From positions 67,429,716 through 67,493,715 of the forward strand of contig OX393553.1 in assembly GCA_947650365.1 (NCBI GenBank): 64,000 nt of DNA, written 5' to 3'. This DNA comes from Chamaelirium japonicum (lineage: Eukaryota > Streptophyta > Magnoliopsida > Liliales > Melanthiaceae). Under the pieces are notes generated by a model. The model saw only the letters and a program-made list of their open reading frames with translations. It had not been told where the DNA came from and did no database searches. The position numbers were made by a program, and so were the translations under genes. Positions 2,986 to 33,800 of this stretch are shown in pieces (positions within the stretch are counted from its first letter, which is position 1; every line of letters starts with the position of its first letter).

Positions 2986-3089
2986 ATCAATTCATATTAT
3001 CATTCTAGTTAATATAGTTAGAAATTGTGTTAGTAAGTTTTATCATTGATAATTCTCTTTTGGTATTTATTGATTCATATAATTTATCA

Positions 3090-10844: not shown

Positions 10845-10970
10845 ATTGAACGGAACCACTTAGGGGGCCTCATGGATCCGGGAGGAGATACAACCTTCAT
10901 TGGATGGGTGGTCTCTTTCGAAGGGAAAGAGCACCTCTGCTGGTCTTCGACGGCTGATACTAATGGTGCA

Positions 10971-10983
10971 ACGTTTGATGTCC
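10971..10983. repeat. Left target-site duplication of the full-length L1
   Basis: ACGTTTGATGTCC here recurs at 34628-34640, right after the LINE poly-A tail. The first A could belong to the tail, so the duplication is 12 or 13 bp, a normal length for L1. Confidence 0.92.
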
Positions 10984-11003
10984 AAAAATCACATTTAGAA
11001 GAG

Positions 11004-12881
11004 ATGTCGGATAGGAACGCCTCTCCAGCTCCACGGCGCTCTTCTTCGGCGGCAAATGGTGAAGACCCAGGAGGGCCAGGTGGCTCTCGGCCGAGTTACC
11101 TCGCGGCGGCGACAAATAGGCGAGCTGGCCAGTGGGAAGGTAGGCTCGATGCCTCCCATCGCGCCAGGATGGGGGAATTAGTCGGTGGATTGGTGGTGCT
11201 TGATCCGGCGAGACTCCAAGCGTCCCAGATGCGGTGGAAGCAAGCGTTGGTTGGTAAATTTCTTGGGCCGAAGATGCCTCTGGATACGTTGCGGACGAGA
11301 GTTGCTCAACGGTGGCCGTGCGCTGGTAAGGTGCAAATCATGGATCTCCCCAATGGATTCTTTTGTTTCCGGTTCGAATTGGAGGAGGATCTATTGGATG
11401 TTTGGGAAGGAAGTCCATGGGTGTTTGATGGCAGGGTTCTCACCCTTAAAAGATGGACTCCTTTCTTTCAACCGGCGAACGAGACTATCGACCGGACTCC
11501 GGTGTGGATCAGGTTGCCAGGGTTGCTCGTGGATTGTTTTGATGAAGATTTGGTAATGGATATAGCGACAGCAGCTGGTCGACCGATTCGGGTAGATAAG
11601 AGGTCTTTAGAGGGGTCGAGAGGACTATTTGTTAGAGTCTGTGTCGAAGTGGACCTCACACGGAGTCTCCCGCCGGGAACAAATGTCGGCACGGCGGATG
11701 ATCAGGTGCGTTTCTACCAACCATTTGTGTATGAGAATCTCCCGAAGGTATGCTTTGCGTGCGGTAGGGTTGGTCATACGATTCAGGTGTGCCCTACGGG
11801 GAGCGGAGGGGGAAGAGGGGTGGCGGAGATGCGTGGTGTCGCGGAGGAGCTGAGGGGACAGGGTGCAGGTTCTGCCCCAGTTGGAGCAGCGAGTGGGGTA
11901 GAGAACAGGGTGGAGGGGCCATCGGAGATTTCTCGCGAGAAGAGCGTGGTGGATTCCGGGGTCAGGGACTCTGTTTTTGGGCCATGGATGGTGGTGGAGC
12001 GAAGACAGAGGAGGCCGACTGGTGACCGGCGGCGTGGTGCGTGCGGAGGGACGACGGCAGTGGAGCGGCGGGATGGCAAGTGTATGGACCCTATGACTCC
12101 ACGTCGCACAAACTATTTACCGAGAAACGATTCAGGCCCCGAGGGTCGTCAGGTGTTGGAAAGGTCGGGACCAATGGGCGGCTTGCGGGGGGGTCCCACA
12201 ATTAATATGGGGTCTCGGTTTCAACCTTTGGTAGGTGACCGGGTAGAGTCGGGAGATCCGGTACCACGGCCAAGTGCTGATGTTGAAAGATCTACTCCGG
12301 CCTTGCATGATGATCGGATGGAGGATATGGTTATAGATGGTTCAGCTTCAAGGCGACGTGGGAGCATGTCGAAAGTTAGTGGTCCAGATGAGAAGGTGGC
12401 TCTGCGCAGGAGGGAACCAGGCGTGGAGGCTTCGAGTGAGTCTGTTGGGGATGAGGAGGGGGTGATGAAGTGTGAGGAAGTGGTCAGAGAAGAGGGGCTC
12501 CTGCCTCCTGGGTCACCGGAATTGCCGCCGGGTTTCTCATCCGAGACTTGTGGCAGTGTGGATCCAAATATTGGGAAGTTGGGCCCACGTATTGGGCAGT
12601 TGGAGGATATTCACTCAGAGGCAGTTGAAACGGCTTGTGGTTTTCTAGCTGAGGCCGATCGAGCAGAGGTTGAGGTCCTGGAGGACGAGAGTGAGACTGG
12701 GGAGGGCGGTGCGATGGGTGAGGAGTCTAGGCCTGGAGTGCGAGTCCATGGGCTGGGAGGGCATCGAGGCCATCACTTGGTACGTCGTAAGGAGAGGCTT
12801 GCTTTGAAGGGACAAAGTTTGAAGAAGTCTGGTAAGGGAGCATGTCTCCCTACATTCATTCTATCCTCCCTTCCTAAATGA
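11004..12881 (+). CDS. LINE ORF1 protein (DUF4283 plus CCHC zinc knuckle)
   Basis: A 625-residue open frame, the nucleic-acid-binding ORF1 protein of plant L1 elements, which binds element RNA and accompanies it during target-primed reverse transcription. An alanine/serine-rich N-terminus (about 1-60) precedes a DUF4283 region (about 70-220; WPCAGKVQIMDL, FCFRFELEEDLLDVWEGSPW). A zinc knuckle follows with C250, C253, H258 and C263 (C-x2-C-x4-H-x4-C). The C-terminal 350 residues are of low complexity, rich in G, E and R. The open frame continues upstream to 10785, but I chose the ATG at 11004 because the region before 10984 belongs to the host DNA outside the LINE. The stop codon overlaps the ORF2 start in an ATGA arrangement, which suggests coupled re-initiation. 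The frame is undamaged. Confidence 0.88.
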   Translation: MSDRNASPAPRRSSSAANGEDPGGPGGSRPSYLAAATNRRAGQWEGRLDASHRARMGELVGGLVVLDPARLQASQMRWKQALVGKFLGPKMPLDTLRTRVAQRWPCAGKVQIMDLPNGFFCFRFELEEDLLDVWEGSPWVFDGRVLTLKRWTPFFQPANETIDRTPVWIRLPGLLVDCFDEDLVMDIATAAGRPIRVDKRSLEGSRGLFVRVCVEVDLTRSLPPGTNVGTADDQVRFYQPFVYENLPKVCFACGRVGHTIQVCPTGSGGGRGVAEMRGVAEELRGQGAGSAPVGAASGVENRVEGPSEISREKSVVDSGVRDSVFGPWMVVERRQRRPTGDRRRGACGGTTAVERRDGKCMDPMTPRRTNYLPRNDSGPEGRQVLERSGPMGGLRGGPTINMGSRFQPLVGDRVESGDPVPRPSADVERSTPALHDDRMEDMVIDGSASRRRGSMSKVSGPDEKVALRRREPGVEASSESVGDEEGVMKCEEVVREEGLLPPGSPELPPGFSSETCGSVDPNIGKLGPRIGQLEDIHSEAVETACGFLAEADRAEVEVLEDESETGEGGAMGEESRPGVRVHGLGGHRGHHLVRRKERLALKGQSLKKSGKGACLPTFILSSLPK

Positions 12882-12938
12882 AAGTTCTCTTTTGGAACTG
12901 TCGAGGTCTGTTACGACCGGCGGCAATTGGGCACATTA

Positions 12939-15267
12939 TGTTGGAAATAAATCCATGGTAGAGGCCCGCAGCGGAAGCAAAGTGAAGGTCCGAGGACCGT
13001 GAGCGGTGTGCGTTACATATCAAAATTTTCATCGAAACGATCTACATATGCGTGTATGAATCTAGCATGGTAACTACGCGAACCCCTAACGACGATCTAA
13101 CGCAAAAGAACAATCTAGAATGTATGCATGTTCTAATTATGTTAGATCTACTTGTTAGAGATCATACCTGCGTGCGGAATCTTTCACCGCGACAAATTTC
13201 TTCTTTGTCGATGGAGACGGGCTACGGATCTGCTCGACATAGCTTCGGTGCGACAGCCATAACTTTTTGCTCCGAACTCCGATTGGGCTAAAATTTGGAC
13301 TGCAGGTAGCCAACTTCGAGACGGAACTTTTGCAACAAGTTTCACGTCGTTTGGACTTCTATAGCTCCCGGAATAACAGAAACAACGCTGATTTTCTGTG
13401 CAGATTCTGGACAGCAAAAGGTTGCGGGAGACGCCTTCTAGTTCACCCGATCTCACACGATGCACGGCACCTCGTCGATGGATCTCTGAGTGCCTCCATA
13501 CGACGAGCCTTCTCCTTCTACAAAACACCACGTAAGGAAGACGAGTCGCCATCCAATGGCGCAAGCGAGGGAGAGAGAGACGAGAGAGGAGATGCGAAGA
13601 GAGGAGAGGGGGCGGCTAGGGTTTCCCCATGCCATGGCCGGCCCTAGGGCTTGCATGGCTCTATTAATTTTGTGCACCCTCTCTCTCCTTCTCATATATA
13701 GGGCCGGCCTATTCATATGGATAAGGACAGTATGGATAAGGATGATAGATTCAAATCTTATCCCTATATATCTCTTCTTTATCTCTATCCTTTCCTTGTT
13801 TTCGAAAACGGTCAAAACCAGCCCGTTTTCTGCGCCTCAGAACCGGCCCCTTCATCGGAGGCAACAACCTCCCGAAACTAATGGGGCCGGCCTTGACCAG
13901 TCTCTCAACACTTTGGGTCGGCCCCCTTAGTGCATAGTGGCGCATGGTATGACCAAAACGCCCTTATGCCACTAGTTGGCCGTTCCTCGTGTACGAGACT
14001 TTGCAAGGCACACATAAGTGAAGTGCACCAGTGATTTCACTATTCTCTGAGGTTCCCGTAGGGTGCCCCTAGTGAAGTCAACTAGTCAACTCGCAACATG
14101 TCCCAGTGCATCGCACCCATGTGGCAAAGTCCACTTATGGCAAGGAATTGCTACATGCGTCTCTGCACTAACCTAGGGTTTCCCCTTAGTGCACACACGT
14201 AGCTACGCATCTACCGTGCACTAGTGCGAAGCACTCACGGAGCGTATGCTTGGACTTCTCGCTTCCTCTAACTACGTTCTGTGTTTCGATGAGATGGTAT
14301 AAGAACCATACATAATGTCGATAAGGTGGAACCTTCAGGGACCAGGGTTCATGGCTTCCAACTCAGACTCGATCGACACACTACCCGAGTGTACCATCGA
14401 TCCTCTGAGTCCGAGTTAACCTGCGTAGCCACCCAGAGTGCGACGCAGGCTGCACTCCAATCCCCCCGGACTTACTATGTTCTCCCACATACCCCTGCTC
14501 TCCGCTTAGTATGGTAAACTCGTTGTCCCTCCACTGGTGCCATGACGCAACTCGAGCGGTGGAGAATACCGTCAGACTCGAGTGCTCATATGACTCGGTT
14601 CCTTCCAGGTTGACCACATACATCGTACCTCCGATTACTCTTCCGAGCAACCGGATCCGTCACCAGTCCAACTGATGACCACCTGGCCAGGGTTTAATAC
14701 GACGTAGGTCATACCAAGGAACGCACCTCCCGTTAGGGGTGTGGATAGCCTGCAGGAGTGACACGCTGATGCAACGCCAGCCGGGTAACCCAGTACACCG
14801 TGGTTTTGGATCACTGCATCCGGATCCTCACACATTGGTGTGCCAAAGCACCACACAACTGGTTAGTCCACCAGACATGGTTCCTCAGGGTTTAGGACCG
14901 TTTTACCCTAAGTAGAAACACGGTTTAGTGCACCGATATCTGCTCATCGATCTGTGCACCGTGTTGGTTCCGTTCGGCCACAGACACTGTGCCTGGTAAT
15001 GACCGTGGTGGAGACACCTACGCTCTGTCATCCCAACAGCTTATCCTGATAGGGCGACCAACCCTTATCAGAGCTGCGAACGTATTTAGGTTACATGGGA
15101 CCAGTCCCTTGAGTCTCCCACTCAAGTGGATTACCATGTAGCCATGGCTCTCTGTTCTGTAATCAGAACACGTACTAAGGTACGTACCAATATGCAATCC
15201 TATACTATCAACCATACAAAGCTAAACACTAGGTTTTTACGAGCTATAGACCTCACCAATTCTAACA
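12939..15267 (-). repeat. LTR 1 of the copia array (element 3' side)
   Basis: TGTTGGAA...TTCTAACA ends, 2329 bp, long for a copia LTR. It carries about 12 private variants relative to the other two LTRs, all in its left 1.49 kb. Confidence 0.93.
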
Positions 15268-18200
15268 ATCTCCCACTAGGTCTAACGAGGAATAACAGTG
15301 TTGAGCTCTGTAGCTTCTACATGCTGCCCAAAAGCCTTTGCAGGAATTCCCTAAAGGAATTGACAATATTGTCTGTAGATTCCACCTCAATACCGCTACT
15401 TGCATTTCCTCATATAACTGTCAGATCAAGTGGAGTTTGTACTTGATGGGTTTCCCCTCACGGTGGTGCCTAGTCTCCTTGGACCTTGCTTACCACTCTT
15501 CTGTTGTAACAACAGATAACTGAGCCTCTGGTACGCGTCCCAAGTTCTCTAAGAACTTCCTAAGCCTTACCACCTGATATACTACTTCGCACGCAACAAC
15601 GTGCTAAGCATCTGTGGTAGAGTCTGTGATGCACTTGCTTCACACTCTACCAATTACCGCTTCTAATCCCAAAATAAACATAATCCCTGAAATCGATTCT
15701 CTGAAACACACATCTGACACCAAAGTCAGATCCTGTGTGTCCAATCGATATCAGGACCTGTGAAGTGCAAGCTAACTCACAATCCTTACTTAACGAGGAT
15801 TTCTGAGTATACCCTTCACATCGGTCCAAAGATCTGGACCCGGGTTCGACTGAAACCGACCCATCTTCCTGCTGCGCAATAGATATCTAGCCTCTTAAAA
15901 CGAATCTGGCTAGAATCTTATCTTCATGCGTAACCTGTGATAGCAAGAGAATCTTGCTCTGGTTGTCTCGAGTTACCTTGATTCCCAGAGCATAACTCGC
16001 CTCATTAGGGTCTTTCACATCGAATTGTGATGACTACAAACCTTTACCGTAAACAATATTCTTACATCATTTTCAATCAGTAAAATATCGTTAACGTAAA
16101 GTACTAAATACACCCTTGTAGCTATTTCACCTTTCTTGTACCAACTTGGTTTATCCTCATTCTGATCAAATCCGTGTGAGCGGATTCCCTTGATCAAAAT
16201 AGACATTCCAACCTGGATGCTTGCATCAGTCCATAAATGGACCATTGCAACTTGCATTCCATATCTTCCTAACCTACTGACACAAAGCCTGAGGCTACAT
16301 CATCCATATGTCCTTTCCAAATTCCCGTTAGGGAATAACTGTCTTGACATCCATCAACCAGATCTCCCAACTATAATGGGCTGTGATGGATTAAGAGGAT
16401 CCGTTATAGACTTAGGCATAGCTACCAGTGAGATGGTTTTGACATAGTCAATCCCTTCTCCTTTGGTAACTAATCTAGCTACTTAAGTCTTAACCGGGTG
16501 CTCTTCTTATACACCTCCTACACCCTGAAGGGTGATAGTGCTATAAGTGTCAAGACTGTTCCAAGGGACATTGATGTAAGCTTGCCTCCATGGTCTTTTG
16601 TCAGTCAGAGCTGTCGGAATCTCCCACTACTTCTTCGTAGCTCTAGGGATCATCCTCCTGAAACTCTGGATTAACTATCAAAGTTTCTCCATAGTATCTT
16701 TCAGGAGCTCTGATGGTCCCACAACGATGAGGTGGTGGTGGTACAAAGGAAGCTCCCACTACTTCTTCGTAGCTCTAAGGATCATCCTCCTGAAACTCTG
16801 GATTAACTATCGAAGTTTCTTCATAGTATCTTTCAGGAGCTCTGATGGTCCCACAACGATGAGGTGGTGGTGGTACAAAGTGAATCGTTTCTACAATACC
16901 TGGTATACTAGTTTCTTGTCACTACACCAAAACAGACAATTTGTAACGGTCAATTAGTAACGGTTGTTACAAAAAGTGTTACAAATATTTGTAACGCCAT
17001 TTTTCTAACGGTTTTTTTGTGTTACTAAACATATTTATAACAGTTGGCTGCGTTACTAAATCCTGATTTTGGTGTAGTGTGTATCATCTACTCCCACTAC
17101 GTTTTTCAAATGCGCACTCTCTACCAGTACCCAGTAGTTCACCCAGAACTACCTTACCGGTAAACTTATGGTCTTATAATATAATCTTGATCTAGGTAGA
17201 TGGTGTTCGTAGAAACGATTACCTTCCTAACCTCAAGATCATAAAACAGTCCATCTTATGCCTCCTAAGGGTAACCTACAAACAGATATACCTGGAACTA
17301 CATCTCCATCTCATCCCTCTTGTCGTTTTGCACAAGTGCAGGACAACTCTATATCTCGAGACACTATAGTGTCAGCTTTCGCTTAGACCATAGCTCTCTA
17401 TAGGTCTGAGGTACTGATCTAGATGAGAGATAGTTTCAGATATAAGCTACTGTTTTAAGGTACAACCCCACCAAAGGTGGATAGTATACTTGGCAATATT
17501 CATCATACTACGGACCATGTCAAACAGAGTCCGATTCCTTCTCTCGGAGACTTCATTCTGACGTGTCATCCTTAGAGCATTTAACTAGGAGATAATCCCA
17601 TACTCTCTCAGGATCCTATGGAACTCGTCCGATAGTGACTTATTTCTTCGATTAAATCGAAGAGTCTTCTATCGTCTAGACGCTCTTGGAACCATAGACG
17701 TCAAAATTAACTAACTCCTATACCTTAGTGGCCCTTTTAGTTATTCTGCCTTCCAGATAACACTCATAGGTCAGAAGGATCTCCGATGAATCTGTGAACA
17801 GAAACTCAGCCTTCTTTTACCTTTGAATTTATCTAAGGCAGAATATCTAAATCAGAGGGGTCACAAATGGGATAGCTTCTCCGAAGGATTTAGATGAATT
17901 TCAATTAGACGCTACAGCTGTCATGAAATCTATTTCCGAATTAGGATTAAATACAAAGAGATTATTTTGATCTATTCCTCTAGTAATGAAGCTATCTATT
18001 CAGTTTAAGATACACACCAACGGTGCTGTCTAAAACTAAAAACTTCATTTACCAAAGAGGAAACAGAACTACATCTCTAAAAACCAAAATCCGTATTTCG
18101 GAAAAACTAAGACAATCATATCTAACAGCTTCCGCAGCGGCTTATGGCATCAGTACCTATGTTAGGATTCCATCACTATAAAGTAGCCTTCTGCTTTCCT

Positions 18201-20820
18201 TGAATATCTGTAGACCAGAAGTCTACATTCCAAGAAGCATAAGAACTGCTACTAGATAGCGACTCAACTCCTAACATCCTGAGGTCATACTCAATCTTCA
18301 AATACCCCCTATGCTCGCCACAGCGGAAATACTTTCGTCCTTGGCGTTACCAGACTTAGGATTCCACACCAGTTTCTGCACTAGAATAGTTTTCGATCTC
18401 TTATAAGTTATTCCCTTAGGTTCTTCTAAAGAAGACCTAGGTTAAGCACTAAAGGCATTGCCTTTAATCTTGATCTCATCCTTTGTCTCTTGGAAATCTC
18501 CTTAGAAGTTCTGCGTTTATCATCTCTAACTTGTTAAAGCTAAAGTCTCTGATAACGCCTTCGAAGGTTCCAGACAAGGATGCAAGACAGACGTCTTCCA
18601 CCACCTCGTCATCTGGTACCATGTCTTGGAAATCTAGTTTGTTCTGGAACTCAAAGATGTGTTCCCGAACAAGCATACCCACTGACATCTCGGTACCGAC
18701 AAGTATCTTAGTGGAAAAGCGATGAGTCGACTGACTTCGCCTTCCAGACATCTAATGCAAGTAAAACTTAATTAGAGAAGACCCGGCATATCTCTGACTC
18801 GCTTCTAAAGAATTGTCCGCAAGTCTGCTATAACATAGCACTTGCACATCTCCTTAGACTCTCGTCAGTCTTCATATGCCCTAGTTAGTGCCCTAGTGAT
18901 ATCTGGACCCATTAGGTCTAGTACAGGGATATTTAGATTGCATGCCAATGTACATTTACTACCCTAAGCATAAGCTAAAGATTGTGCTTCCACTCTACGT
19001 AGTTAGAGACCCGATAACTGGTTCTCTTATGGGATAACGGATAGGGGAACTATATGGTTGAATGAAAATGAATGCAAAATAACTTATTTTATGGATTTTG
19101 AAAATAAGCTAATTATATCCAAATGTCAGCGCTACCCTCACAGCGAAGACACCTCTATGGATTAATTAACCATGTATGTAAGATCTCGGAATCGACTACA
19201 CCTGCCCTAGGGGGCATCATGCAGCGTCAATCCGCTTACACGGGCCTTTCCTTGACCCAGTCCAAATCTGCCAACTAAGGGCTTTGATGGACCATGGTTA
19301 TCTTTTGGCCAGTGCCACGTGATCACCGTTGTCTTCGCAACGAATACCTCACGTGCACTTAGGATGCTTACCCACGAGCCTAAGCAATTATGACACGGGA
19401 GTTCATGCGGCCCCCACTAGGGTGGGATAAAAAGCCCTTCTCTCCTGGCCTCGTAATCGCCATATCCTTAGGGAGGTCATTAAGTAATTTGGCATGGAAA
19501 CACACAGCTCCCACCCTAGGGGGTGTGAAGTTATGCATCCCCACCCAAACACAAAACGACTGGCCGTGGAGGCCAGAGGATCTCTAAAAGTCCTCTCTTA
19601 CATCCCTTATTAAAGTTGAGGGTTATTTAATGCAAGTATGAGTGTACACTAAGGTCACGACAACCTATACACTAGACCCTGGTCATACCGTGCTCCCACT
19701 AGCATTCAAGCCTTTCGCGAAGCATTAATCGATCTTGGAATATCATAGTCCCTACCTCGAGTGGATTTCTCCACTCAAGGGTCACATTACATATCCCAAG
19801 AACATTGATGCTTTGCAAACTTGGCTATCACGCTAATGCCCTGCAGCCTAGCCTAAGGTCAGACTGACAAGAAAGGTCTTCCACTACCATGGCGCCTTGC
19901 TTATAAATTTGACGAATGATGTCATAGTAGAATTCCAACTCATTCTAGGTTTCGATGCTTGCCAAATAGGCACACCCGACTAATCGGGTGTTGACCTAAT
20001 GGGGGTATAACCAAATATGAGGAATTCATACTATCATCAAGGGTCAATTAAATAATAGGCGTCACTAGTGGAATCCAATCCTAATAAGGTCGCTAGGACC
20101 CGAGGGGAAAGGGCATCCCTCTGACACAGATAATCAAATTATCGCATCGGGGTTCTCTACAGAAATATAAAGAACTACTGAAAGAAATAAGCACACAACT
20201 GAATCAAGTTCAGGGTCCGACCCCTGAACCTGACTGGCACAGCGCAGGCTCTCTGTCTCCTTCACAAGGCTCCTCGATCCGGTGCAAGCCTCTGTATACG
20301 ATCTTCTGACGCTTTATGCCCTTTACCGTCATCGTGTACGCTTCGCCGGATCGCCATCGTCCTCCAAGGTTCCGCTCATCTTCCCAGTGGTGGATCTCCA
20401 CGGTAAGTCCTCCTCTTCAATCTGTAACCGAAAAAGATCTAGTACGCTTCGAGCAAGTGCTCGCTCGTACACAATTTCCTAGAAAGAAAAGGAAAACAAA
20501 CCTAGCAAAAGCCTGGGAATCAAGGGTGGTAAATCTTCACCTCTTGCCCGACTATGGCTCTAAAATCTATCCACACACAGAAGAAAAAACATCCAGACAA
20601 AATCGCTAACACGGGGTCCGACCCCCGGTAGCAAGCAATCACATATCCAGAATAATTTTAGAAGCGGCGCCCTGCAAGAACGATTCATAGAACATACAAA
20701 ATCTACTATGCATGATCTACTCGTAGAACCCCGATGGCGGCACATACTATTCATGCGCGCACATGACGGTTTCATGAAAAAAACATGAAACGCACACCAC
20801 TAGCGTGCTCTGATACCAAT
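15268..20820 (-). mobile_element. Copia array internal region 1
   Basis: 5553 bp, identical to internal region 2 apart from about 7 substitutions and the 163 bp added by a CACTA MITE and its duplication. Minus-strand remnants: a copia RT piece around 16.0-16.3 kb (GIRSHGFDQNEDKP and an LVLYV-D-ILLI box) and a gag-like piece around 18.45-18.75 kb. A 132-bp segment is tandemly duplicated at about 16621-16879. The primer-binding site is at 20807-20820 and the purine tract at 15268-15277. The remainder has no recognisable frame. Confidence 0.88.
16920..17079. mobile_element. CACTA MITE, 160 bp
   Basis: Ends CACTACACCAAAA and TTTTGGTGTAGTG form a perfect 13-bp inverted repeat. The 3-bp flanks TGT (16917-16919 and 17080-17082) are the target size of CACTA elements. 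The second copy of the internal region lacks it and shows the intact empty site near 24800, so insertion followed the tandem duplication, or it was lost precisely from the other copy. Confidence 0.96.
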
Positions 20821-23149
20821 TGTTGGAAATAAATCCATGGTAGAGGCCCGCAGCGGAAGCAAAGTGAAGGTCCGAGGACCGTGAACGGTGTGCGTTACAT
20901 ATCAAAATTTTCATCGAAACGATCTACATATGCGTGTATGAATCTAGCATGGCAACTACGCGAACCCCTAACGACGATCTAACGCAAAAGAACAATCTAG
21001 AATGTATGCATGTTCTAATTATGTTAGATCTACTTGTTAGAGATCATACCTGCGTGCGGAATCTTTCACCGCGACAAATTTCTTCTTTGTCGATGGAGAC
21101 GGGCTACGGATCTGCTCGACATAGCTTCGGTGCGACAGCCATAACTTTTTGTTCCAAACTCCGATTGCGCTGAAATTTGGACTGCAGGTAGCCAACTTCG
21201 AGACGGAACTTTTGCAACAAGTTTCACATCGTTTGGACTTCTATAGCTCCCGGAATAATAGAAACAACGTTGATTTTCTGTGCAGATTCTGGACAGCAAA
21301 AGGTTGCGGGAGACGCCTTCTAGTTCACCCGATCTCACACGATGCACGGCACCTCGTCGATGGATCTCTGAGTGCCTCCATACGACGAGCCTTCTCCTTC
21401 TACAAAACACCACGTGAGGAAGACGAGTCGCCATCCAATGACGCAAGCGAGGGAGAGAGAGACGAGAGAGGAGATGCGAAGAGAGGAGAGGGGGCGGCTA
21501 GGGTTTCCCCATGCCATGGCCGGCCCTAGGGCTTGCATGGCTCTATTAATTTTGTGCACCCTCTCTCTCCTTCTCATATATAGGGCCGGCCTATTCATAT
21601 GGATAAGGACAGTATGGATAAGGATGATAGATTCAAATCTTATCCCTATATATCTCTTCTTTATCTCTATCCTTTCCTTGTTTTCGAAAACGGTCAAAAC
21701 CAGCCCGTTTTTTGCGCCTCAGAACCGGCCCCTTCATCGGAGGCAACAACCTCCCGAAACTAATGGGGCCGGCCTTGACCAGTCTCTCAATACTTTGGGC
21801 CGGCCCCCTTAGTGCATAGTGGCGCATGGTATGACCAAAACGCCCTTATGCCACTAGTTGGCCGTTCCTCGTGTACGAGACTTTGCAAGGCACACATAAG
21901 TGAAGTGCACCAGTGATTTCACTATTCTCTGAGGTTCCCGTAGGGTGCCCCTAGTGAAGTCAACTAGTCAACTCGCAACATGTCCCGGTGCATCGCACCC
22001 ATGTGGCAAAGTCCACTTATGGCAAGGAATTGCTACATGCGTCTCTGCACTAACCTAGGGTTTCCCCTTAGTGCACACACGTAGCTACGCATCTACCGTG
22101 CACTAGTGCGAAGCACTCACGGAGCGTATGCTTGGACTTCTCGCTTCCTCTAACTACGTTCTGTGTTTCGATGAGATGGTATAAGAACCATACATAATGT
22201 CGATAAGGTGGAACCTTCAGGGACCAGGGTTCATGGCTTCCAACTCAGACTCGATCGACACACTACCCGAGTGTACCATCGATCCTCTGAGTCCGAGTTA
22301 ACCTACGTAGCCACCCAGAGTGCGACGCAGGCTGCACTCCAATCCCCCCGGACTTACTATGTTCTCCCACATACCCCTGCTCTCCGCTTAGTATGGTAAA
22401 CTCGTTGTCCCTCCACTGGTGCCATGACGCAACTCGAGCGGTGGAGAATACCGTCAGACTCGAGTGCTCATATGACTCGGTTCCTTCCAGGTTGACCACA
22501 TACATCGTACCTCCGATTACTCTTCCGAGCAACCGGATCCGTCACCAGTCCAACTGATGACCACCTGGCCAGGGTTTAATACGACGTAGGTCATACCAAG
22601 GAACGCACCTCCCGTTAGGGGTGTGGATAGCCTGCAGGAGTGACACGCTGATGCAACGCCAGCCGGGTAACCCAGTACACCGTGGTTTTGGATCACTGCA
22701 TCCGGATCCTCACACATTAGTGTGCCAAAGCACCACACAACTGGTTAGTCCACCAGACATGGTTCCTCAGGGTTTAGGACCGTTTTACCCTAAGTAGAAA
22801 CACGGTTTAGTGCACCGATATCTGCTCATCGATCTGTGCACCGTGTTGGTTCCGTTCGGCCACAGACACTGTGCCTGGTAATGACCGTGGTGGAGACACC
22901 TACGCTCTGTCATCCCAACAGCTTATCCTGATAGGGCGACCAACCCTTATCAGAGCTGCGAACGTATTTAGGTTACATGGGACCAGTCCCTTGAGTCTCC
23001 CACTCAAGTGGATTACCATGTAGCCATGGCTCTCTGTTCTGTAATCAGAACACGTACTAAGGTACGTACCAATATGCAATCCTATACTATCAACCATACA
23101 AAGCTAAACACTAGGTTTTTATGAGCTATAGACCTCACCAATTCTAACA
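20821..23149 (-). repeat. LTR 2 (middle) of the copia array
   Basis: 2329 bp with the same ends as LTR 1. It shares LTR 3 variants through its left 1.49 kb and LTR 1 variants at the two informative sites farther right. It also has about six private variants. It is thus a candidate recombinant LTR. Confidence 0.93.
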
Positions 23150-26100
23150 ATCTCCCACTAGGTCTAACGAGGAATAACAGTGTTGAGCTCTGTAGCTTCT
23201 ACATGCTGCCCAAAAGCCTTTGCAGGAATTCCCTAAAGGAATTGACAATATTGTCTGTAGATTCCACCTCAATACCGCTACTTGCATTTCCTCATATAAC
23301 TGTCAGATCAAGTGGAGTTTGTACTTGATGGGTTTCCCCTCACGGTGGTGCCTAGTCTCCTTGGACCTTGCTTACCGCTCTTCTGTTGTAACAACAGATA
23401 ACTGAGCCTCTGGTACGCGTCCCAAGTTCTCTAAGAACTTCCTAAGCCTTACCACCTGATATACTACTTCGCACGCAACAACGTGCTAAGCATCTGTGGT
23501 AGAGTCTGTGATGCACTTGCTTCACACTCTACCAATTACCGCTTCTAATCCCAAAATAAACATAATCCCTGAAATCGATTCTCTGAAACACACATCTGAC
23601 ACCAAAGTCAGATCCTGTGTGTCCAATCGATATCAGGACCTGTGAAGTGCAAGCTAACTCACAATCCTTACTTAACGAGGATTTCTGAGTATACCCTTCA
23701 CATCGGTCCAAAGATCTGGACCCGGGTTCGACTGAAACCGACCCATCTTCCTGCTGCGCAATAGATATCTAGCCTCTTAAAACGAATCTGGCTAGAATCT
23801 TATCTTCATGCGTAACCTGTGATAGCAAGAGAATCTTGCTCTGGTTGTCTCGAGTTACCTTGATTCCCAGAGCATAACTCGCCTCATTAGGGTCTTTCAC
23901 ATCGAATTGTGATGACTACAAACCTTTACCGTAAACAATATTCTTACATCATTTTCAATCAGTAAAATATCGTTAACGTAAAGTACTAAATACACCCTTG
24001 TAGCTATTTCACCTTTCTTGTACCAACTTGGTTTATCCTCATTCTGATCAAATCCGTGTGAGCGGATTCCCTTGATCAAAATAGACATTCCAACCTGGAT
24101 GCTTGCATCAGTCCATAAATGGACCATTGCAACTTGCATTCCATATCTTCCTAACCTACTGACACAAAGCCTGAGGCTACATCATCCATATGTCCTTTCC
24201 AAATTCCCGTTAGGGAATAACTGTCTTGACATCCATCAACCAGATCTCCCAACTATAATGGGCTGTGATGGATTAAGAGGATCCGTTATAGACTTAGGCA
24301 TAGCTACCAGTGAGATGGTTTTGACATAGTCAATCCCTTCTCCTTTGGTAACTAATCTAGCTACTTAAGTCTTAACCGGGTGCTCTTCTTATACACCTCC
24401 TACACCCTGAAGGGTGATAGTGCTATAAGTGTCAAGACTGTTCCAAGGGACATTGATGTAAGCTTGCCTCCATGGTCTTTTGTCAGTCAGAGCTGTCGGA
24501 ATCTCCCACTACTTCTTCGTAGCTCTAGGGATCATCCTCCTGAAACTCTGGATTAACTATCAAAGTTTCTCCATAGTATCTTTCAGGAGCTCTGATGGTC
24601 CCACAACGATGAGGTGGTGGTGGTACAAAGGAAGCTCCCACTACTTCTTCGTAGCTCTAAGGATCATCCTCCTGAAACTCTGGATTAACTATCGAAGTTT
24701 CTCCATAGTATCTTTCAGGAGCTCTGATGGTCCCACAACGATGAGGTGGTGGTGGTACAAAGTGAATCGTTTCTACAATACCTGGTATACTAGTTTCTTG
24801 TATCATCTACTCCCACTACGTTTTTCAAATGCGCACTCTCTACCAGTACCCAGTAGTTCACCCAGAACTACCTTACCGGTAAACTTATGGTCTTATAATA
24901 TAATCTTGATCTAGGTAGATGGTGTTCGTAGAAACGATTACCTTCCTAACCTCAAGATCATAAAACAGTCCATCTTATGCCTCCTAAGGGTAACCTACAA
25001 ACAGATATACCTGGAACTACATCTCCATCTCATCCCTCTTGTCGTTTTGCACAAGTGCAGGACAACTCTATATCTCGAGACACTATAGTGTCAGCTTTCG
25101 CTTAGACCATAGCTCTCTATAGGTCTGAGGTACTGATCTAGATGAGAGATAGTTTCAGATATAAGCTACTGTTTTAAGGTACAACCCCACCAAAGGTGGA
25201 TAGTATACTTGGCAATATTCATCATACTACGGACCATGTCAAACAGAGTCCGATTCCTTCTCTCGGAGACTTCATTCTGACGTGTCATCCTTAGAGCATT
25301 TAACTAGGAGATAATCCCATACTCTCTCAGGATCCTATGGAACTCGTCCGATAGTGACTTATTTCTTCGATTAAATCGAAGAGTCTTCTATCGTCTAGAC
25401 GCTCTTGGAACCATAGACGTCAAAATTAACTAACTCATATACCTTAGTGGCCCTTTTAGTTATTCTGCCTTCCAGATAACACTCATAGGTCAGAAGGATC
25501 TCCGATGAATCTGTGAACAGAAACTCAGCCTTCTTTTACCTTTGAATTTATCTAAGGCAGAATATCTAAATCAGAGGGGTCACAAATGGGATAGCTTCTC
25601 CGAAGGATTTAGATGAATTTCAATTAGACGCTACAGCTGTCATGAAATCTATTTCCGAATTAGGATTAAATACAAAGAGATTATTTTGATCTATTCCTCT
25701 AGTAATGAAGCTATCTATTCAGTTTAAGATACACACCAACGGTGCTGTCTAAAACTAAAAACTTCATTTACCAAAGAGGAAACAGAACTACATCTCTAAA
25801 AACCAAAATCCGTATTTCGGAAAAACTAAGACAATCATATCTAACAGCTTCCGCAGCGGCTTATGGCATCAGTACCTATGTTAGGATTCCATCACTATAA
25901 AGTAGCCTTCTGCTTTCCTTGAATATCTGTAGACCAGAAGTCTACATTCCAAGAAGCATAAGAACTGCTACTAGATAGCGACTCAACTCCTAACATCCTG
26001 AGGTCATACTCAATCTTCAAATACCCCCTATGCTCGCCACAGCGGAAATACTTTCGTCCTTGGCGTTACCAGACTTAGGATTCCATACCAGTTTCTGCAC

Positions 26101-28539
26101 TAGAATAGTTTTCGATCTCTTATAAGTTATTCCCTTAGGTTCTTCTAAAGAAGACCTAGGTTAAGCACTAAAGGCATTGCCTTTAATCTTGATCTCATCC
26201 TTTGTCTCTTGGAAATCTCCTTAGAAGTTCTGCGTTTATCATCTCTAACTTGTTAAAGCTAAAGTCTCTGATAACGCCTTCGAAGGTTCCAGACAAGGAT
26301 GCAAGACAGACGTCTTCCACCACCTCGTCATCTGGTACCATGTCTTGGAAATCTAGTTTGTTCTGGAACTCAAAGATGTGTTCCCGAACAAGCATACCCA
26401 CTGACATCTCGGTACCGACAAGTATCTTAGTGGAAAAGCGATGAGTCGACTGACTTCGCCTTCCAGACATCTAATTCAAGTAAAACTTAATTAGAGAAGA
26501 CCCGGCATATCTCTGACTCGCTTCTAAAGAATTGTCCGCAAGTCTGCTATAACATAGCACTTGCACATCTCCTTAGACTCTCGTCAGTCTTCATATGCCC
26601 TAGTTAGTGCCCTAGTGATATCTGGACCCATTAGGTCTAGTACAGGGATATTTAGATTGCATGCCAATGTACATTTACTACCCTAAGCATAAGCTAAAGA
26701 TTGTGCTTCCACTCTACGTAGTTAGAGACCCGATAACTGGTTCTCTTATGGGATAACGGATAGGGGAACTATATGGTTGAATGAAAATGAATGCAAAATA
26801 ACTTATTTTATGGATTTTGAAAATAAGCTAATTATATCCAAATGTCAGCGCTACCCTCACAGCGAAGACACCTCTATGGATTAATTAACCATGTATGTAA
26901 GATCTCGGAATCGACTACACCTGCCCTAGGGGGCATCATGCAGCGTCAATCCGCTTACACGGGCCTTTCCTTGACCCAGTCCAAATCTGCCAACTAAGGG
27001 CTTTGATGGACCATGGTTATCTTTTGGCCAGTGCCACGTGATCACCGTTGTCTTCGCAACGAATACCTCACGTGCACTTAGGATGCTTACCCACGAGCCT
27101 AAGCAATTATGACACGGGAGTTCATGCGGCCCCCACTAGGGTGGGATAAAAAGCCCTTCTCTCCTGGCCTCGTAATCGCCATATCCTTAGGGAGGTCATT
27201 AAGTAATTTGGCATGGAAACACACAGCTCCCACCCTAGGGGGTGTGAAGTTATGCATCCCCACCCAAACACAAAACGACTGGCCGTGGAGGCCAGAGGAT
27301 CTCTAAAAGTCCTCTCTTACATCCCTTATTAAAGTTGAGGGTTATTTAATGCAAGTATGAGTGTACACTAAGGTCACGACAACCTATACACTAGACCCTG
27401 GTCATACCGTGCTCCCACTAGCATTCAAGCCTTTCGCGAAGCATTAATCGATCTTGGAATATCATAGTCCCTACCTCGAGTGGATTTCTCCACTCAAGGG
27501 TCACATTACATATCCCAAGAACATTGATGCTTTGCAAACTTGGCTATCACGCTAATGCCCTGCAGCCTAGCCTAAGGTCAGACTGACAAGAAAGGTCTTC
27601 CACTACCATGGCGCCTTGCTTATAAATTTGACGAATGATGTCATAGTAGAATTTCAACTCATTCTAGGTTTCGATGCTTGCCAAATAGGCACACCCGACT
27701 AATCGGGTGTTGACCTAATGGGGGTATAACCAAATATGAGGAATTCATACTATCATCAAGGGTCAATTAAATAATAGGCGTCACTAGTGGAATCCAATCC
27801 TAATAAGGTCGCTAGGACCCGAGGGGAAAGGGCATCCCTCTGACACAGATAATCAAATTATCGCATCGGGGTTCTCTACAGAAATATAAAGAACTACTGA
27901 AAGAAATAAGCACACAACTGAATCAAGTTCAGGGTCCGACCCCTGAACCTGACTGGCACAGCGCAGGCTCTCTGTCTCCTTCACAAGGCTCCTCGATCCG
28001 GTGCAAGCCTCTGTATACGATCTTCTGACGCTTTATGCCCTTTGCCGTCATCGTGTACGCTTCGCCGGATCGCCATCGTCCTCCAAGGTTCCGCTCATCT
28101 TCCCAGTGGTGGATCTCCACGGTAAGTCCTCCTCTTCAATCTGTAACCGAAAAAGATCTAGTACGCTTCGAGCAAGTGCTCGCTCGTACACAATTTCCTA
28201 GAAAGAAAAGGAAAACAAACCTAGCAAAAGCCTGGGAATCAAGGGTGGTAAATCTTCACCTCTTGCCCGACTATGGCTCTAAAATCTATCCACACACAGA
28301 AGAAAAAACATCCAGACAAAATCGCTAACACGGGGTCCGACCCCCGGTAGCAAGCAATCACATATCCAGAATAATTTTAGAAGCGGCGCCCTGCAAGAAC
28401 GATTCATAGAACATACAAAATCTACTATGCATGATCTACTCGTAGAACCCCGATGGCGGCACATACTATTCATGCGCGCACATGACGGTTTCATGAAAAA
28501 AACATGAAACGCACACCACTAGCGTGCTCTGATACCAAT
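23150..28539 (-). mobile_element. Copia array internal region 2
   Basis: 5390 bp, the same content as internal region 1 without the CACTA MITE. The primer-binding site is at 28526-28539 and the purine tract at 23150-23159, both on the minus strand. Confidence 0.88.
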
Positions 28540-30868
28540 TGTTGGAAATAAATCCATGGTAGAGGCCCGCAGCGGAAGCAAAGTGAAGGTCCGAGGACCG
28601 TGAACGGTGTGCGTTACATATCAAAATTTTCATCGAAACGATCTACATATGCGTGTATGAATCTAGCATGGCAACTACGCGAACCCCTAACGACGATCTA
28701 ACGCAAAAGAACAATCTAGAATGTATGCATGTTCTAATTATGTTAGATCTACTTGTTAGAGATCATACCTGCGTGCGAAATCTTTCACCGCGACAAATTT
28801 CTTCTTTGTCGATGGAGACGGGCTACGGATCTGCTCGACATAGCTTCGGTGCGACAGCCATAACTTTTTGCTCCAAACTCCGATTGCGTTGAAATTTGGA
28901 CTGCAGGTAGCCAACTTCGAGACGGAACTTTTGCAACAAGTTTCACGTCGTTTGGACTTCTATAGCTCCCGGAATAATAGAAACAACGTTGATTTTCTGT
29001 GCAGATTCTGGACAGCAAAAGGTTGCGGGAGACGCCTTCTAGTTCACCCGATCTCACACGATGCACGGCACCTCGTCGATGGATCTCTGAGTGCCTCCAT
29101 ACGACGAGCCTTCTCCTTCTACAAAACACCACGTGAGGAAGACGAGTCGCCATCCAATGGCGCAAGCGAGGGAGAGAGAGACGAGAGAGGAGATGCGAAG
29201 AGAGGAGAGGGGGCGGCTAGGGTTTCCCCATGCCATGGCCGGCCCTAGGGCTTGCATGGCTCTATTAATTTTGTGCACCCTCTCTCTCCTTCTCATATAT
29301 AGGGCCGGCCTATTCATATGGATAAGGACAGTATGGATAAGGATGATAGATTCAAATCTTATCCCTATATATCTCTTCTTTATCTCTATCCTTTCCTTGT
29401 TTTCGAAAACGGTCAAAACCAGCCCGTTTTTTGCGCCTCAGAACCGGCCCCTTCATCGGAGGCAACAACCTCCCGAAACTAATGGGGCCGGCCTTGACCA
29501 GTCTCTCAACACTTTGGGCCGGCCCCCTTAGTGCATAGTGGCGCATGGTATGACCAAAACGCCCTTATGCCACTAGTTGGCCGTTCCTCGTGTACGAGAC
29601 TTTGCAAGGCACACATAAGTGAAGTGCACCAGTGATTTCACTATTCTCTGAGGTTCCCGTAGGGTGCCCCTAGTGAAGTCAACTAGTCAACTCGCAACAT
29701 GTCCCGGTGCATCGCACCCATGTGGCAAAGTCCACTTATGGCAAGGAATTGCTACATGCGTCTCTGCACTAACCTAGGGTTTCCCCTTAGTGCACACACG
29801 TAGCTACGCATCTACCGTGCACTAGTGCGAAGCACTCACGGAGCGTATGCTTGGACTTCTCGCTTCCTCTAACTACGTTCTGTGTTTCGATGAGATGGTA
29901 TAAGAACCATACATAATGTCGATAAGGTGGAACCTTCAGGGACCAGGGTTCATGGCTTCCAACTCAGACTCGATCGACACACTACCCGAGTGTACCATCG
30001 ATCCTCTGAGTCCGAGTTAACCTACGTAGCCACCCAGAGTGCGACGCAGGCTGCACTCCAATCCCCCCGGACTTACTATGTTCTCCCACATACCCCTGCT
30101 CTCCGCTTAGTATGGTAAACTCGTTGTCCCTCCACTGGTGCCATGACGCAACTCGAGCGGTGGAGAATACCGTCAGACTCGAGTGCTCATATGACTCGGT
30201 TCCTTCCAGGTTGACCACATACATCGTACCTCCGATTACTCTTCCGAGCAACCGGATCCGTCACCAGTCCAACTGATGACCACCTGGCCAGGGTTTAATA
30301 CGACGTAGGTCATACCAAGGAACGCACCTCCCGTTAGGGGTGTGGATAGCCTGCAGGAGTGACACGCTGATGCAACGCCAGCCGGGTAACCCAGTACACC
30401 GTGGTTTTGGATCACTGCATCCGGATCCTCACACATTGGTGTGCCAAAGCACCACACAACTGGTTAGTCCACCAGACATGGTTCCTCAGGGTTTAGGACC
30501 GTTTTACCCTAAGCAGAAACACGGTTTAGTGCACCGATGTCTGCTCATCGATCTGTGCACCGTGTTGGTTCCGTTCGGCCACAGACACTGTGCCTGGTAA
30601 TGACCGTGGTGGAGACACCTACGCTCTGTCATCCCAACAGCTTATCCTGATAGGGCGACCAACCCTTATCAGAGCTGCGAACGTATTTAGGTTACATGGG
30701 ACCAGTCCCTTGAGTCTCCCACTCAAGTGGATTACCATGTAGCCATGGCTCTCTGTTCTGTAATCAGAACACGTACTAAGGTACGTACCAATATGCAATC
30801 CTATACTATCAACCATACAAAGCTAAACACTAGGTTTTTACGAGCTATAGACCTCACCAATTCTAACA
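28540..30868 (-). repeat. LTR 3 of the copia array (element 5' side)
   Basis: 2329 bp, ending TTCTAACA directly before the right CATTA duplication. About four private variants by eye. Confidence 0.93.
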
Positions 30869-33800
30869 CATTAAGCTGTTAATACGGCAATCTCGACCAG
30901 ACTTGGTCCTATTAGTGGAAAGCCACTTGCGGGTGACGCATTTGCGTCGGGTGCAATCCATTTTTCGCGGGAAATTTGAAGTGGCCTGTATACCTTCTAA
31001 TGGGCGATCTGGGGGAATTGTCTGCATGTGGCACCGGGAGATTGGTTTAGTTACTCCTCTTACCCGCCAAAAACAAGTTATGCACCTTGTGTTGACGAGA
31101 CCTCAGTTGTCCCCAGTGATCGTCTCCGTCATTTATGCAAGCAATTCGGCACAGGAAAGGCAAACATTATGGTCTGAACTGCAAGTGCTTGGGCAGTGGA
31201 ATTTTCCTTGGTGTTTACTAGGGGATTACAATTGTGTTCTAACCCCAGAAGACAAGCACGGGGGCCGACCATTCCATTGGTCGAGAAGTACTCAGGCTTT
31301 TTTGGAGACGCTTCATGTATGCGGGTTGAGAGATCCTCATCATTTAGGGGATGTCTACACCTGGTGTAATAATCGGCAAGGAGCAGCTCAAATTTTGGAA
31401 AGGCTTGATAGATGTTTTGTGAATGATCGGTGGACCACGATGATTGATGACACTGCGGTCAATCATCTCCCAAGATGTGTGTCCGATCACTCCCCTGTTC
31501 TGGTGTCTACGGCTCACAATACTCGTCCTACTCGGGTTCCGTGGAGATTCCATAATTTTTGGTTTCACCAAAAAGACTGTGTGCCGGAGATCAAACAACA
31601 CTGGATACAGGGTGCTAGTTGTGAGGCCAACTTGCCCTTTAGTCGAAGGGCTTTATCGCACTGGAATAAACATTCAGTTGGGAATATTCATTCACTAGTG
31701 GATTCGTTATGGGATAGGCTTTTGAAATTGAATGGTGATACGCAAGATCCCGTTGAATCAGTTGAGAGAGAGAGGGTCCGCGAACAGTTGGACTGGGCGC
31801 TGGAACAACAGGAGCTTCTTTGGATGCAAAAATCCTGAATCCAATGGTTGCGGGGAGGCGATCGAAATACTGGTTTCTTCCATACGTGTACTAAAGTGCA
31901 CCGGAGCCAAAATCGTATAAGGAATTTGCGGATTGGAGACGAGGATGTTACAGAACCACGACGAATCCAAGAGGTTCTGATTGAATTCTTTCAACAACGG
32001 TGGACGGCCAAAGGTGGACTCCAACTACAATTGTTGGATAGTATACAGAGCATTATCACGTCGAGCATGAATGAATTCCTAGTACGGATACCAGATGAGG
32101 GGGAGATACAGCGGGTCGTATTTGCCGCACCAAACAATAAATCTCCAGGACCCGATGGCTTCAATGGAGAATTCTACAAGGAGTGTTGGAGCTTCATCGG
32201 GGTAGATGTTACCCGTGATGTGCAGCAATTTTTTCGGTCGGGATGTATGCCTCCTAGATGGAACGATACTGCAGTAGTGCTGATTCCAAAGAAGCCCACA
32301 CCTATGAAGCCGGACGATTTCAGACCGATTAGTCTGTGCAACCAAAGGTATAAATTTATCTCAAAGATATTGTCTAATCGGTTGCGGGTTCTGATACCTT
32401 CTATCATTAAGGAGGAACAATATGCCTTCATACCAGGGAGGCGGATTAGGGAAAATGTGGTACTGGCACAGGAGATCCTCCATTCCTTGCATGTTGCCCC
32501 TCGGAGTCGGGCGGCAATGGCAATCAAAGCCGACTTGGACAAAGCCTATGATAGCATCCAATGGGATGCTTTGGAAACGATTCTCTACAAGCTGGGATTC
32601 CATAGGATTTGGATAGCTTGGGTTATGCAATGTGTTAGATCACCAACTTTGAGTTTGTTACTTAATGGCGAGGACATGCCGGGTTTTCGTCCGAGTTGTG
32701 GGCTAAGGCAAGGCGATCCGTTATCCCCGTATTTATTCTTGTTGGTAGCGCAAGTCATTCATTGGGAAATGGAAAAATCAGTCAATACGGGAGATATTGA
32801 TGGGTTCGTTACAAAGAGACACTCGGATCCTGTCACCATCTTAGCCTATGCTGATGATTACATGTTCTTTGCCCGGGCAACGGAATTAGATGCTTGGGGC
32901 CTTTGTGCCGTGTTTGACAGGGTGGCCAAAAGTACGGGTTTGCGAGTGAGCCCGCATAAATCCAGCGTGAAATATTCTCGAAGTGTGAATACAAAGATGA
33001 AGAGGAGAGTGGGGAATGCTTTGGGGATGAGGGAGGACACTGAACCATGGATTCATCTCGGGGTTCCTTGCAATGGTCGACGGGTACCTCATAGGGCCTA
33101 CCAGGTGGTGATCAGTCATATGGAGTCTCGGTTGTCTGGGTGGAAGGCCAAACTGTTGTCTCAAGCGGGAAGGGTGGTAATGCTGCAGTCGGTTCTGACA
33201 TCTATACCCATTCATTGTATGGCTGCAGGGGGTTTACCTATGGGTGTGATACACCAACTAGACCGACTGTGCCGGAATTTCCTTTGGGGACACAAAGGAG
33301 GTGAGCGACGACTTCATCCGATAGCTTGGGAGACTATCACGCAGGATAAGGAGTATGGTGGGCTACAGGTACAGAGTTTTATGAATTTGCAATTACAACA
33401 AGATATTGCCAATTTACTGTATATCTTAACATATTCGCATAATGGGGCGCAGTGGATACGGTCTAAATATCGAGTGGCTTTAGACTCGTGGCAACAATGG
33501 AGACAGCGTGGGGCGTCATCAGGATGGAATCGAATGATGTCTCGAATACAACACCTAAATTCCAAGGTATCAGGATTGCGGCCCCGGTATTTACGTATGC
33601 TTGATACACTGAGAGGAGTGCAATGTGATGGTGGTTCCTTGTCACCCAAGTGGAGAGGTGCTGATTTATGGCAATTGAGGGTACCACCTCGAGTCCATAT
33701 TTTCTTGTGGAAGCTAATACATGGAGCTCTTCCGACTGCGACCATGATAAGGGATCGGGCTCGTTTGGGCTTTGGTGAATGCCCATGGTGTAGTGCACCA

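Follow-up and report, generated by a model that had tools for sequence, protein, structure and literature searches.

Does a tandem LTR retrotransposon enter the genome already doubled, or does it arise from a single insertion by later recombination? Such tandems are common in plants, and passages of a 2025 rice survey leave undecided whether they insert in this form or recombine afterwards (PMC11899658). Tandem LTR-retrotransposons named TLI1 and TLI2, along with the IDENTAM set, are described there from rice and other plants (Morales-Diaz et al. 2025). The class is therefore already known and the origin of such arrays is usually left unresolved; the array described here, in a 64,000-nt stretch of the Chamaelirium japonicum genome (contig OX393553.1; hereafter the window), is a well-resolved case of it. 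Given enough sister LTRs, a single assembly can be used to address tandem origin locus by locus. As judged from polarised sites and divergence, this array was very probably formed by homologous LTR x LTR exchange after insertion, with its breakpoint in the probable U3, and the locus is likely to preserve, polarised by outgroups and ordered in time, the record of a tandem LTR element that originated in this way.

Layout of the array and its target site

Self-BLAST and alignment resolve the array into three LTRs that alternate with two internal regions, with an LTR at either end. Both bear out a preliminary description of three 2,329-bp LTRs enclosed by one pair of CATTA duplications: each LTR is exactly 2,329 bp in length, and the three-way alignment is gap-free. 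The window contains no N and the array lies within a 93-Mb contig; as read from the assembly, the tandem array is real. Its parts are as follows.

12934..12938, unstranded: left TSD copy, CATTA, inside LINE ORF2; the empty site occurs in LINE copies elsewhere
12939..15267, minus strand: LTR1, the biological 3′ LTR (self-BLAST); a PPT-like sequence (complement of ATCTCCCACTAG) adjoins it at 15268
15268..20820, minus strand: internal region 1, 5,553 bp; longest minus-strand stop-to-stop frame 94 aa
16920..17079, unstranded: CACTA-type MITE of 160 bp, in internal region 1 only, with a 13-bp exact TIR (CACTACACCAAAA) and a 3-bp TSD (TGT)
20821..23149, minus strand: LTR2, the mosaic middle LTR (self-BLAST and polarised sites)
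23150..28539, minus strand: internal region 2, 5,390 bp; lacks the MITE and has a weak RVT_2 remnant (23900-24181)
28540..30868, minus strand: LTR3, the biological 5′ LTR; directly left of it lies the primer binding site (PBS), seen as its complement (TGGTATCAGAGC)
30869..30873, unstranded: right TSD copy, CATTA; the empty site occurs in LINE copies elsewhere

The element is oriented on the minus strand. CATTA stands only outside the array, and the inner LTR has no TSD around it. LINE copies at five other places in the genome (L041, L042, L043, L044/L047, and L046) preserve the empty site, with flanks overlapping by exactly 5 bp; L043 has a different base at the first of these five positions. 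Together, the single 5-bp TSD and the empty site in these LINE copies indicate one insertion.

The LTR ends (TG...CA), the PBS beside the 5′ LTR, the PPT beside the 3′ LTR, and the 5-bp TSD are all present, although other LTR superfamilies have these features too. We take the PBS to be that of initiator Met-tRNA. The RVT_2 match is weak and below Pfam's cut-off (E=0.0021), and a weak Retrotran_gag_2 match (E=0.17) at 26198-26470 lies next to another weak match that is unrelated. When 10 frame pieces were scanned for domains, seven yielded nothing at E≤1 and one yielded an unrelated weak match only, and the domain order is not readable. The element is probably non-autonomous and copia-like, and contains domain remnants only. 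Scans of the window with Rfam at the gathering threshold and for tRNAs were empty, and viral_contigs, searched twice by exact pattern for LTR-end relatives, returned 0 stretches each time.

Polarised sites in the middle LTR

The three-LTR alignment contains 22 variable sites. Twelve of these are private to LTR1, at offsets 65 to 1485, and none of them falls in the last 844 bp; six are private to LTR2 (offsets 332, 408, 621, 971, 1899, and 2302) and four to LTR3 (239, 350, 1975, and 2000). The sites listed in the preliminary description are correct: about 12 on the left where LTR2 agrees with LTR3 against LTR1, two on the right (given as about 1974 and 1999, and found at 1975 and 2000) where it agrees with LTR1 against LTR3, and no LTR1-private variant in a final stretch put at 840 bp. 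Its pattern was nevertheless incomplete, as two LTR3-private sites on the left were missed and the LTR2-private sites went uncounted. The LTR1-private sites are clustered rather than evenly spread (p=0.0045 by length, 0.029 by rank). The LTR3-private sites on the left and the LTR2-private sites make the proposed breakpoint test weak when it is run without polarisation; neither MaxChi (permutation p=0.15) nor a 3SEQ-like walk (p=0.61) is significant, and these tests are therefore not relied on.

All 22 sites were polarised with 26 outgroup LTRs from the same genome under an 80% rule, one further outgroup (L030) being left out for one indel (26/27 used). Seven variants are common to the array and present in none of these outgroups. 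Polarisation divides the 12 left sites equally: six are LTR1-derived, and hence uninformative, while the other six (offsets 65, 336, 348, 439, 892, and 1485) are shared-derived in LTR2 and LTR3. LTR1 and LTR2 share derived states at 1975 and 2000. Incompatibility affects 12 of the 28 pairs of informative sites, every one across 1485-1975. LTR2 thus carries the derived alleles of LTR3 on the left and those of LTR1 on the right, with a single switch that agrees with the breakpoint placed earlier at about 1485 to 1974. This mosaic is the predicted product of an unequal exchange between a right LTR and a left LTR, a reading that the polarised sites support; the evidence first offered for it was insufficient, as only 8 of the 14 sites used were informative.

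In a site-level likelihood comparison that takes mutation polarity into account and leaves the LTR rate free, the mosaic is favoured over a star tree by 8.0 units, a difference reached in 2 of 3,000 bootstraps, and over a history in which LTR2 follows LTR3 throughout by 5.06 units (12 of 3,000). On its right side the mosaic depends on two sites separated by 25 bp, and with both removed it is no longer preferred over LTR2 following LTR3 throughout. At least two parallel hits in LTR1 and LTR2 in place of an exchange have P=0.0026, even before their placement on the right side is demanded. The derived alleles at 336 and 1485 are also found in outgroup L004, and that at 439 in three outgroups, indicating some homoplasy. 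Private-derived sites on the left of LTR1 and the right of LTR3 number six, where the other counts, under a strict clock, would call for approximately 9 to 12. Two features of LTR2 locate the switch relative to the LTR promoter.

21575..21582, minus strand: predicted LTR promoter TATA box (TATATATG), in silico only
22305..22795, unstranded: interval with the probable exchange point (LTR offsets 1485-1975), from the polarised incompatible pairs

Transcription typically starts 30 bases from a TATA box, and the position of the predicted box would accordingly place the U3/R border near LTR offset 730. The switch in LTR2 (1485-1975) lies away from this in silico border.

Order of insertion, divergence, and proposed exchange

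Between the two internal regions 7 of 5,390 positions differ (0.13%), and between the outer LTRs 16 of 2,329 (0.69%; p=1e-4). Internal divergence is approximately one fifth of outer-LTR divergence, which argues that the duplication probably took place later than the insertion. Each of the seven internal differences is private to one internal region, three to internal region 1 and four to internal region 2. As a control for rate, the ratio of LTR to internal divergence has a mean of 0.70 across 28 pairs of eight other family elements (per-pair range 0.28 to 1.81), and is about 1.7 for L034 and L039, whose internals are nearest to those of the array. This ratio was taken from the 8 of 9 other internals with both LTRs known, while checks of the MITE and of the seven sites used 9/9, one with a gap at one site. 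If LTRs mutate faster, the one-sided p of the timing test is 0.003 at 1.5 times, 0.02 at 2, and 0.07 at 2.5; after correction for CpG/CHG context it is 4e-4. Recent differences are more frequent in the LTRs (8/2,329) than in the internals (7/5,390), at p=0.086. The MITE was found in none of the nine other internals and probably arrived after the exchange.

An order of insertion, LTR divergence, and then exchange is well supported. A copia-like element consisting of an LTR, a 5.39-kb internal region, and a second LTR would have inserted once into LINE ORF2, on the minus strand, duplicating CATTA, after which its two LTRs would have diverged. Homologous recombination may then have joined two copies of the locus, the right LTR (biological 5′) of one pairing with the left LTR (biological 3′) of the other, at a point within offsets 1485-1975 in the probable U3. 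Such a duplication would yield LTR1, internal region, hybrid LTR2, internal region, and LTR3 in that order, and its reciprocal product would be a solo LTR; the CACTA MITE would later have entered internal region 1 as the parts gained private mutations. We infer the exchange itself, which may have been a crossover or a copying process (break-induced or synthesis-dependent), and its partner may have been on the sister chromatid or the homologue. Since adjacent LTR pairs in such arrays are partly of duplication age, insertion dating by adjacent LTRs misjudges.

Alternative origins and related tandem elements

An extrachromosomal copy (one-LTR circle or cDNA), reverse-transcribed from the same element and recombined into one of its LTRs, would leave a similar LTR2. 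Reverse transcription joins the U3 of LTR1 (3′ LTR) to the R-U5 of LTR3 (5′ LTR), so that, for an element on the minus strand, an LTR3-left/LTR1-right mosaic with left and right in the observed order results here too, and one-LTR circles of LTR elements are known (passages of PMC4751563 and PMC11899658). In a reverse-transcribed LTR, however, the switch must fall at the U3/R border, as stated in a passage on Ty1 (PMC4751563). The TATA box predicts that border at about offset 730, yet LTR2 has LTR3's derived alleles at 892 and 1485, and a switch at 733 costs 6.4 likelihood units and a circle entering LTR3 costs 5.1. The distance of the breakpoint from the predicted border argues against a reverse-transcribed copy, which we consider very unlikely. 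Insertion as a tandem, by concatenated RNA or template switching, would leave the LTRs all equal or only the middle one different. It would likewise produce one TSD, and passages on these elements leave the route open (Morales-Diaz et al. 2025, PMC11899658) or propose it for Cassandra arrays, but it predicts equal divergence where the outer LTRs (0.69%) far exceed the internals (0.13%). The star tree is rejected, treating LTR2 as the odd one gives no improvement in fit over the star, and the shared-derived sites are left unexplained, making this origin extremely improbable.

False joining of two single-element haplotypes, with and without the MITE, through an LTR would give the same mosaic LTR2 as an exchange. 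The seven internal differences could then be allelic, and such a join would leave no separate haplotig, as is the case for the left flank. The size of the contig and the absence of N speak against it. LTRs of 2.3 kb in an 18-kb array are within reach of long reads. The rice element TLI1, of similar form, was confirmed by spanning reads (in a passage of PMC11899658), and overall an artefact of this kind is unlikely. Gene conversion between neighbouring LTRs, following another kind of tandem duplication, is plausible as a process and predicts the same tract pattern. It needs an extra event, though, when homologous duplication through the LTRs makes one hybrid LTR anyway, and the left derived mutations private to LTR2 (four) and LTR3 (two) mean that any conversion was not very recent; we give it hardly any weight.

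Passages on previously described tandems place the proposed post-insertion exchange at this locus in context. TLI1, TLI2, and the IDENTAM set also have two internals, three LTRs with a shared middle one, one short TSD (4-5 bp there), and high identity, and TLI2 is likewise nested in another transposon. Whereas tandem insertion and later recombination were not separable in that study, here the polarised sites and internal divergence favour later recombination. The tandems in that study are mostly gypsy, and 28/28 curated rice cases have regions coding for retrotransposon domains, in contrast to the remnants in the Chamaelirium element. Cassandra and Wukong TRIM arrays are also non-autonomous tandems that share LTRs, with unequal crossing-over proposed (PMC7215508, PMC4528315); they are miniature elements in often longer arrays, and the passages concerned contain no polarised middle LTR. 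The tandem HERV-K(HML-2) proviruses at 7p22.1 and 6q14.1 likewise combine, at a single site, three LTRs with two internals, but are retroviral and human, with single and tandem alleles known to segregate (passages of PMC11807958). In yeast Ty1 circles from LTR-LTR recombination, divergent LTR sites similarly place the breakpoint and the U3/R border separates genomic recombination from cDNA, although the product there is an excised circle and here a duplication (passages of PMC4751563). If the proposed origin is true, shared-derived sites in the middle LTR, internal vs. outer-LTR divergence, and the position of the switch relative to U3/R would sort other plant tandems by origin.

Among 30 LTR loci of the family (30 of 40 scored hits, from 8,344 candidates), no other three-LTR array was found, and LTR2 is the only one of the 30 with internal sequence on both sides. 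Six of the 27 other LTR loci are solo LTRs, five of them with a perfect 5-bp TSD; as a solo LTR is the expected deletion product of LTR-LTR exchange, these count in its favour.

Architecture and orientation of the array

The array occupies an interrupted LINE within the window (G000:C5:67429716-67493715, in a 1.52-Gb genome) and consists of three LTRs separated by internal regions of 5,553 bp (internal 1) and 5,390 bp (internal 2).

Features of the array and its host (window coordinates)
12939-15267, minus strand, LTR1, exactly 2,329 bp
20821-23149, minus strand, LTR2, exactly 2,329 bp
28540-30868, minus strand, LTR3, exactly 2,329 bp
10755-34592, host LINE, ORF1 and ORF2

CATTA is present on both outer sides of the array and does not flank LTR2. 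Elsewhere in the genome, LINE copies at five sites (six LINE loci, two of which coincide) have the two flanks overlapping by exactly 5 bases and so show the clean empty site, with a different first base in the LINE locus L043, and insertion therefore happened once. Coordinates, flanks, and empty sites thus confirm the preliminary description, in which one CATTA duplication encloses three LTRs, each exactly 2,329 bp long. ORF1 of the host LINE (10755-12878) matches DUF4283, while ORF2 starts at about 12878 and runs on across the empty site; its parts match RT and RNase H and, weakly, an endonuclease, and a single in-frame stop near 31836 splits the two right-hand pieces. Both internals carry a 132-bp tandem duplication in two copies (16616-16880 and 24498-24762), which is therefore older than the array duplication.

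The complement of TGGTATCAGAGC adjoins LTR2 and LTR3 on their left, and a PPT-like GTGGGAGAT lies directly beside LTR1 and LTR2. This places the element on the minus strand and makes LTR3 the biological 5′ LTR and LTR1 the 3′ LTR. On this strand, stop-to-stop frames in the internals reach at most 94 aa. One of ten frame pieces scanned contains a weak RVT_2 remnant (E=0.0021, short of the curated cut-off), and a gag match, also in one of ten, is weaker still (E=0.17). By sequence, the element appears non-autonomous and copia-like, with weak evidence for the superfamily assignment. Elsewhere in the window, a further copia pol in degraded form on the plus strand (3037-6244; gag_pre-integrs, Pol_BBD, SH3, and RVT_2 matches in four pieces) has no BLAST match to the array; positions 3-384, at the window edge, match their own reverse complement (87% over ~390 columns) and form a foldback structure; and a 287-bp unit occurs in two head-to-tail copies, 97% alike, at 8465-9038.

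Origin of the middle LTR

The three LTRs differ at 22 sites, of which 12 are private to LTR1, 6 to LTR2, and 4 to LTR3. The preliminary description had read LTR2 from such sites as the product of unequal exchange, LTR3-like on the left and LTR1-like on the right (offsets along the plus strand of the LTR). No LTR1-private site lies beyond offset 1485 (p=0.0045 by length, 0.0020 with context weights, 0.029 by rank), but LTR3-private sites also occur on the left, at 239 and 350, and an unpolarised breakpoint test on the three LTRs gives p=0.15, so that this evidence by itself is suggestive and not decisive. With a free LTR rate, the mosaic beats a star tree by 8.0 in likelihood (reached in 2 of 3,000 bootstraps) and a model in which LTR2 equals LTR3 throughout by 5.06 (12 of 3,000), the latter margin falling to 0 once 1975 and 2000 are both omitted. 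Decay of methylated cytosine is expected to leave T or A in the mutated copy. Under the exchange model, the private copy has T or A at all 8 young transitions, versus C or G at 8 of 13 old transitions, including both right-hand LTR3 sites (Fisher p=0.0068, tested after the pattern had been noticed).

The interpretation as an LTR exchange product is supported on better evidence by outgroups from the same genome. Of 8,344 candidates, 40 were scored; three of these are the LTRs of the window, and 27 of the remaining 37 became loci, with 97.7 to 98.4% identity to LTR3; L030, a family LTR with one indel, was left out, leaving 26 outgroup LTRs. An 80% rule allowed polarisation of all 22 sites. Derived alleles are common to LTR2 and LTR3 at offsets 65, 336, 348, 439, 892, and 1485 and to LTR1 and LTR2 at 1975 and 2000, and the private-derived sites number 6, 6, and 2 in LTR1, LTR2, and LTR3. 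This bears out the proposed left-right mosaic, with the switch in 1485-1975. Incompatible pairs of informative sites (12 of 28) all straddle this interval. The derived allele also occurs in outgroups at 336 and 1485 (L004, a family LTR) and at 439 (three loci), and is in none of the 26 at 65, 348, 892, 1975, and 2000. Without exchange, the probability of LTR1 and LTR2 being hit in parallel at least twice is 0.0026. Given 6 + 2 informative sites, a one-switch arrangement in this orientation has a chance of 1/28, the lowest attainable because such sites are so few. Seven LTR variants common to the array are seen in none of the 26 outgroups; the three LTRs therefore look like a group of their own, and a foreign donor is unneeded.

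A less favoured origin is that LTR2 was rebuilt by reverse transcription of the element's own RNA. Given the reversed orientation of the element, this too predicts an LTR2 that resembles LTR3 on the left, in R-U5, and LTR1 on the right, in U3. Such a mosaic must switch at U3/R, a rule applied to yeast Ty1 circles (PMC4751563). The best predicted TATA box, GCCCTATATATGAG, whose core occupies biological offset 1568 in each of the three LTRs, scores 10.1 bits, versus 5.6 for the top-scoring site close to the interval permitted for the breakpoint; the U3/R border is predicted near plus-strand offset 730. However, LTR2 carries derived alleles of LTR3 past this predicted border, at 892 and 1485, and placing the switch at 733 costs 6.4 likelihood units, while a circle entering LTR3 costs 5.1. 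Genomic LTR-LTR exchange is thus favoured over reverse transcription, subject to the in silico promoter. The same mosaic, with no haplotig left over, would also be expected if two haplotypes had been falsely joined in tandem. For the left flank, 15 matches include no second near-identical copy (next best 95%), and none of the 37 other LTR matches among the 40 scored of 8,344 candidates reaches 99%, so no separate haplotig was seen, an absence that fits a false join too.

Timing of the duplication

The internals differ at 7 of 5,390 sites versus 16 of 2,329 between LTR1 and LTR3 (p=1e-4), each of the seven being private, with 3 derived in internal 1 and 4 in internal 2. The LTR is richer in CpG (54 versus 30 per kb), and a stratified test still gives p=4e-4. 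Across 28 pairs drawn from eight further elements of the family, the mean ratio of LTR to internal divergence is 0.70 (range 0.28-1.81), and LTRs are therefore not generally faster. Counting against this reading, L034 and L039, whose internals are nearest to the array's, show ~1.2% internal and ~2.1% LTR divergence from it (ratio ~1.7); with assumed ratios of 1.5, 2, and 2.5 the timing test gives p=0.003, 0.02, and 0.07. From these divergences and rate controls, the duplication is probably younger than the insertion, with an age that our own arithmetic puts at about one fifth to one half that of the insertion. A 160-bp MITE with a TGT duplication is confined to internal 1 (in 0 of 9 other internals) and therefore probably arrived after the duplication, or is an allelic difference if homologues exchanged.

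Tandem elements and the LTR family

Tandem elements with shared LTRs are a known class, with 266 in a rice pangenome and others in Arabidopsis, almond, and cotton, for which the authors leave both insertion as a tandem and later recombination possible (PMC11899658). Similar arrays are described for Cassandra and Wukong (PMC7215508, PMC4528315) and as HERV-K tandems (PMC11807958). Titles, abstract openings, and cited papers, with subscription journals largely outside, yielded no plant tandem whose hybrid middle LTR had been polarised, and we claim no priority. The observation is confirmed, and the locus is a well-resolved member of a class already known.

Among 30 LTR loci, LTR2 alone is bordered by internal sequence on either side; 23, including LTR1 and LTR3, have it on one side, and 6 are solo LTRs, five with perfect 5-bp TSDs and the sixth matching at 4 of 5 bases. 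Solo LTRs are the expected counterpart of LTR-LTR exchange, and such recombination therefore probably acted elsewhere in the family. The relative represented by L035 with L004 and L022 (G000:C1:63268764-63278816) may be mosaic or exchanged: its LTRs differ at 33 of 2,329 sites, versus 1 to 13 in seven other elements, and L004 carries alleles at 336 and 1485 otherwise specific to LTR2 and LTR3. Compared with window positions 23150-28539, L034 and L039 are closer in the internal region (~1.2%) than in the LTR (~2.1%), and L033 shows the reverse (5.0% and 1.95%), a pattern that suggests recombination among family members between LTR and internal parts.
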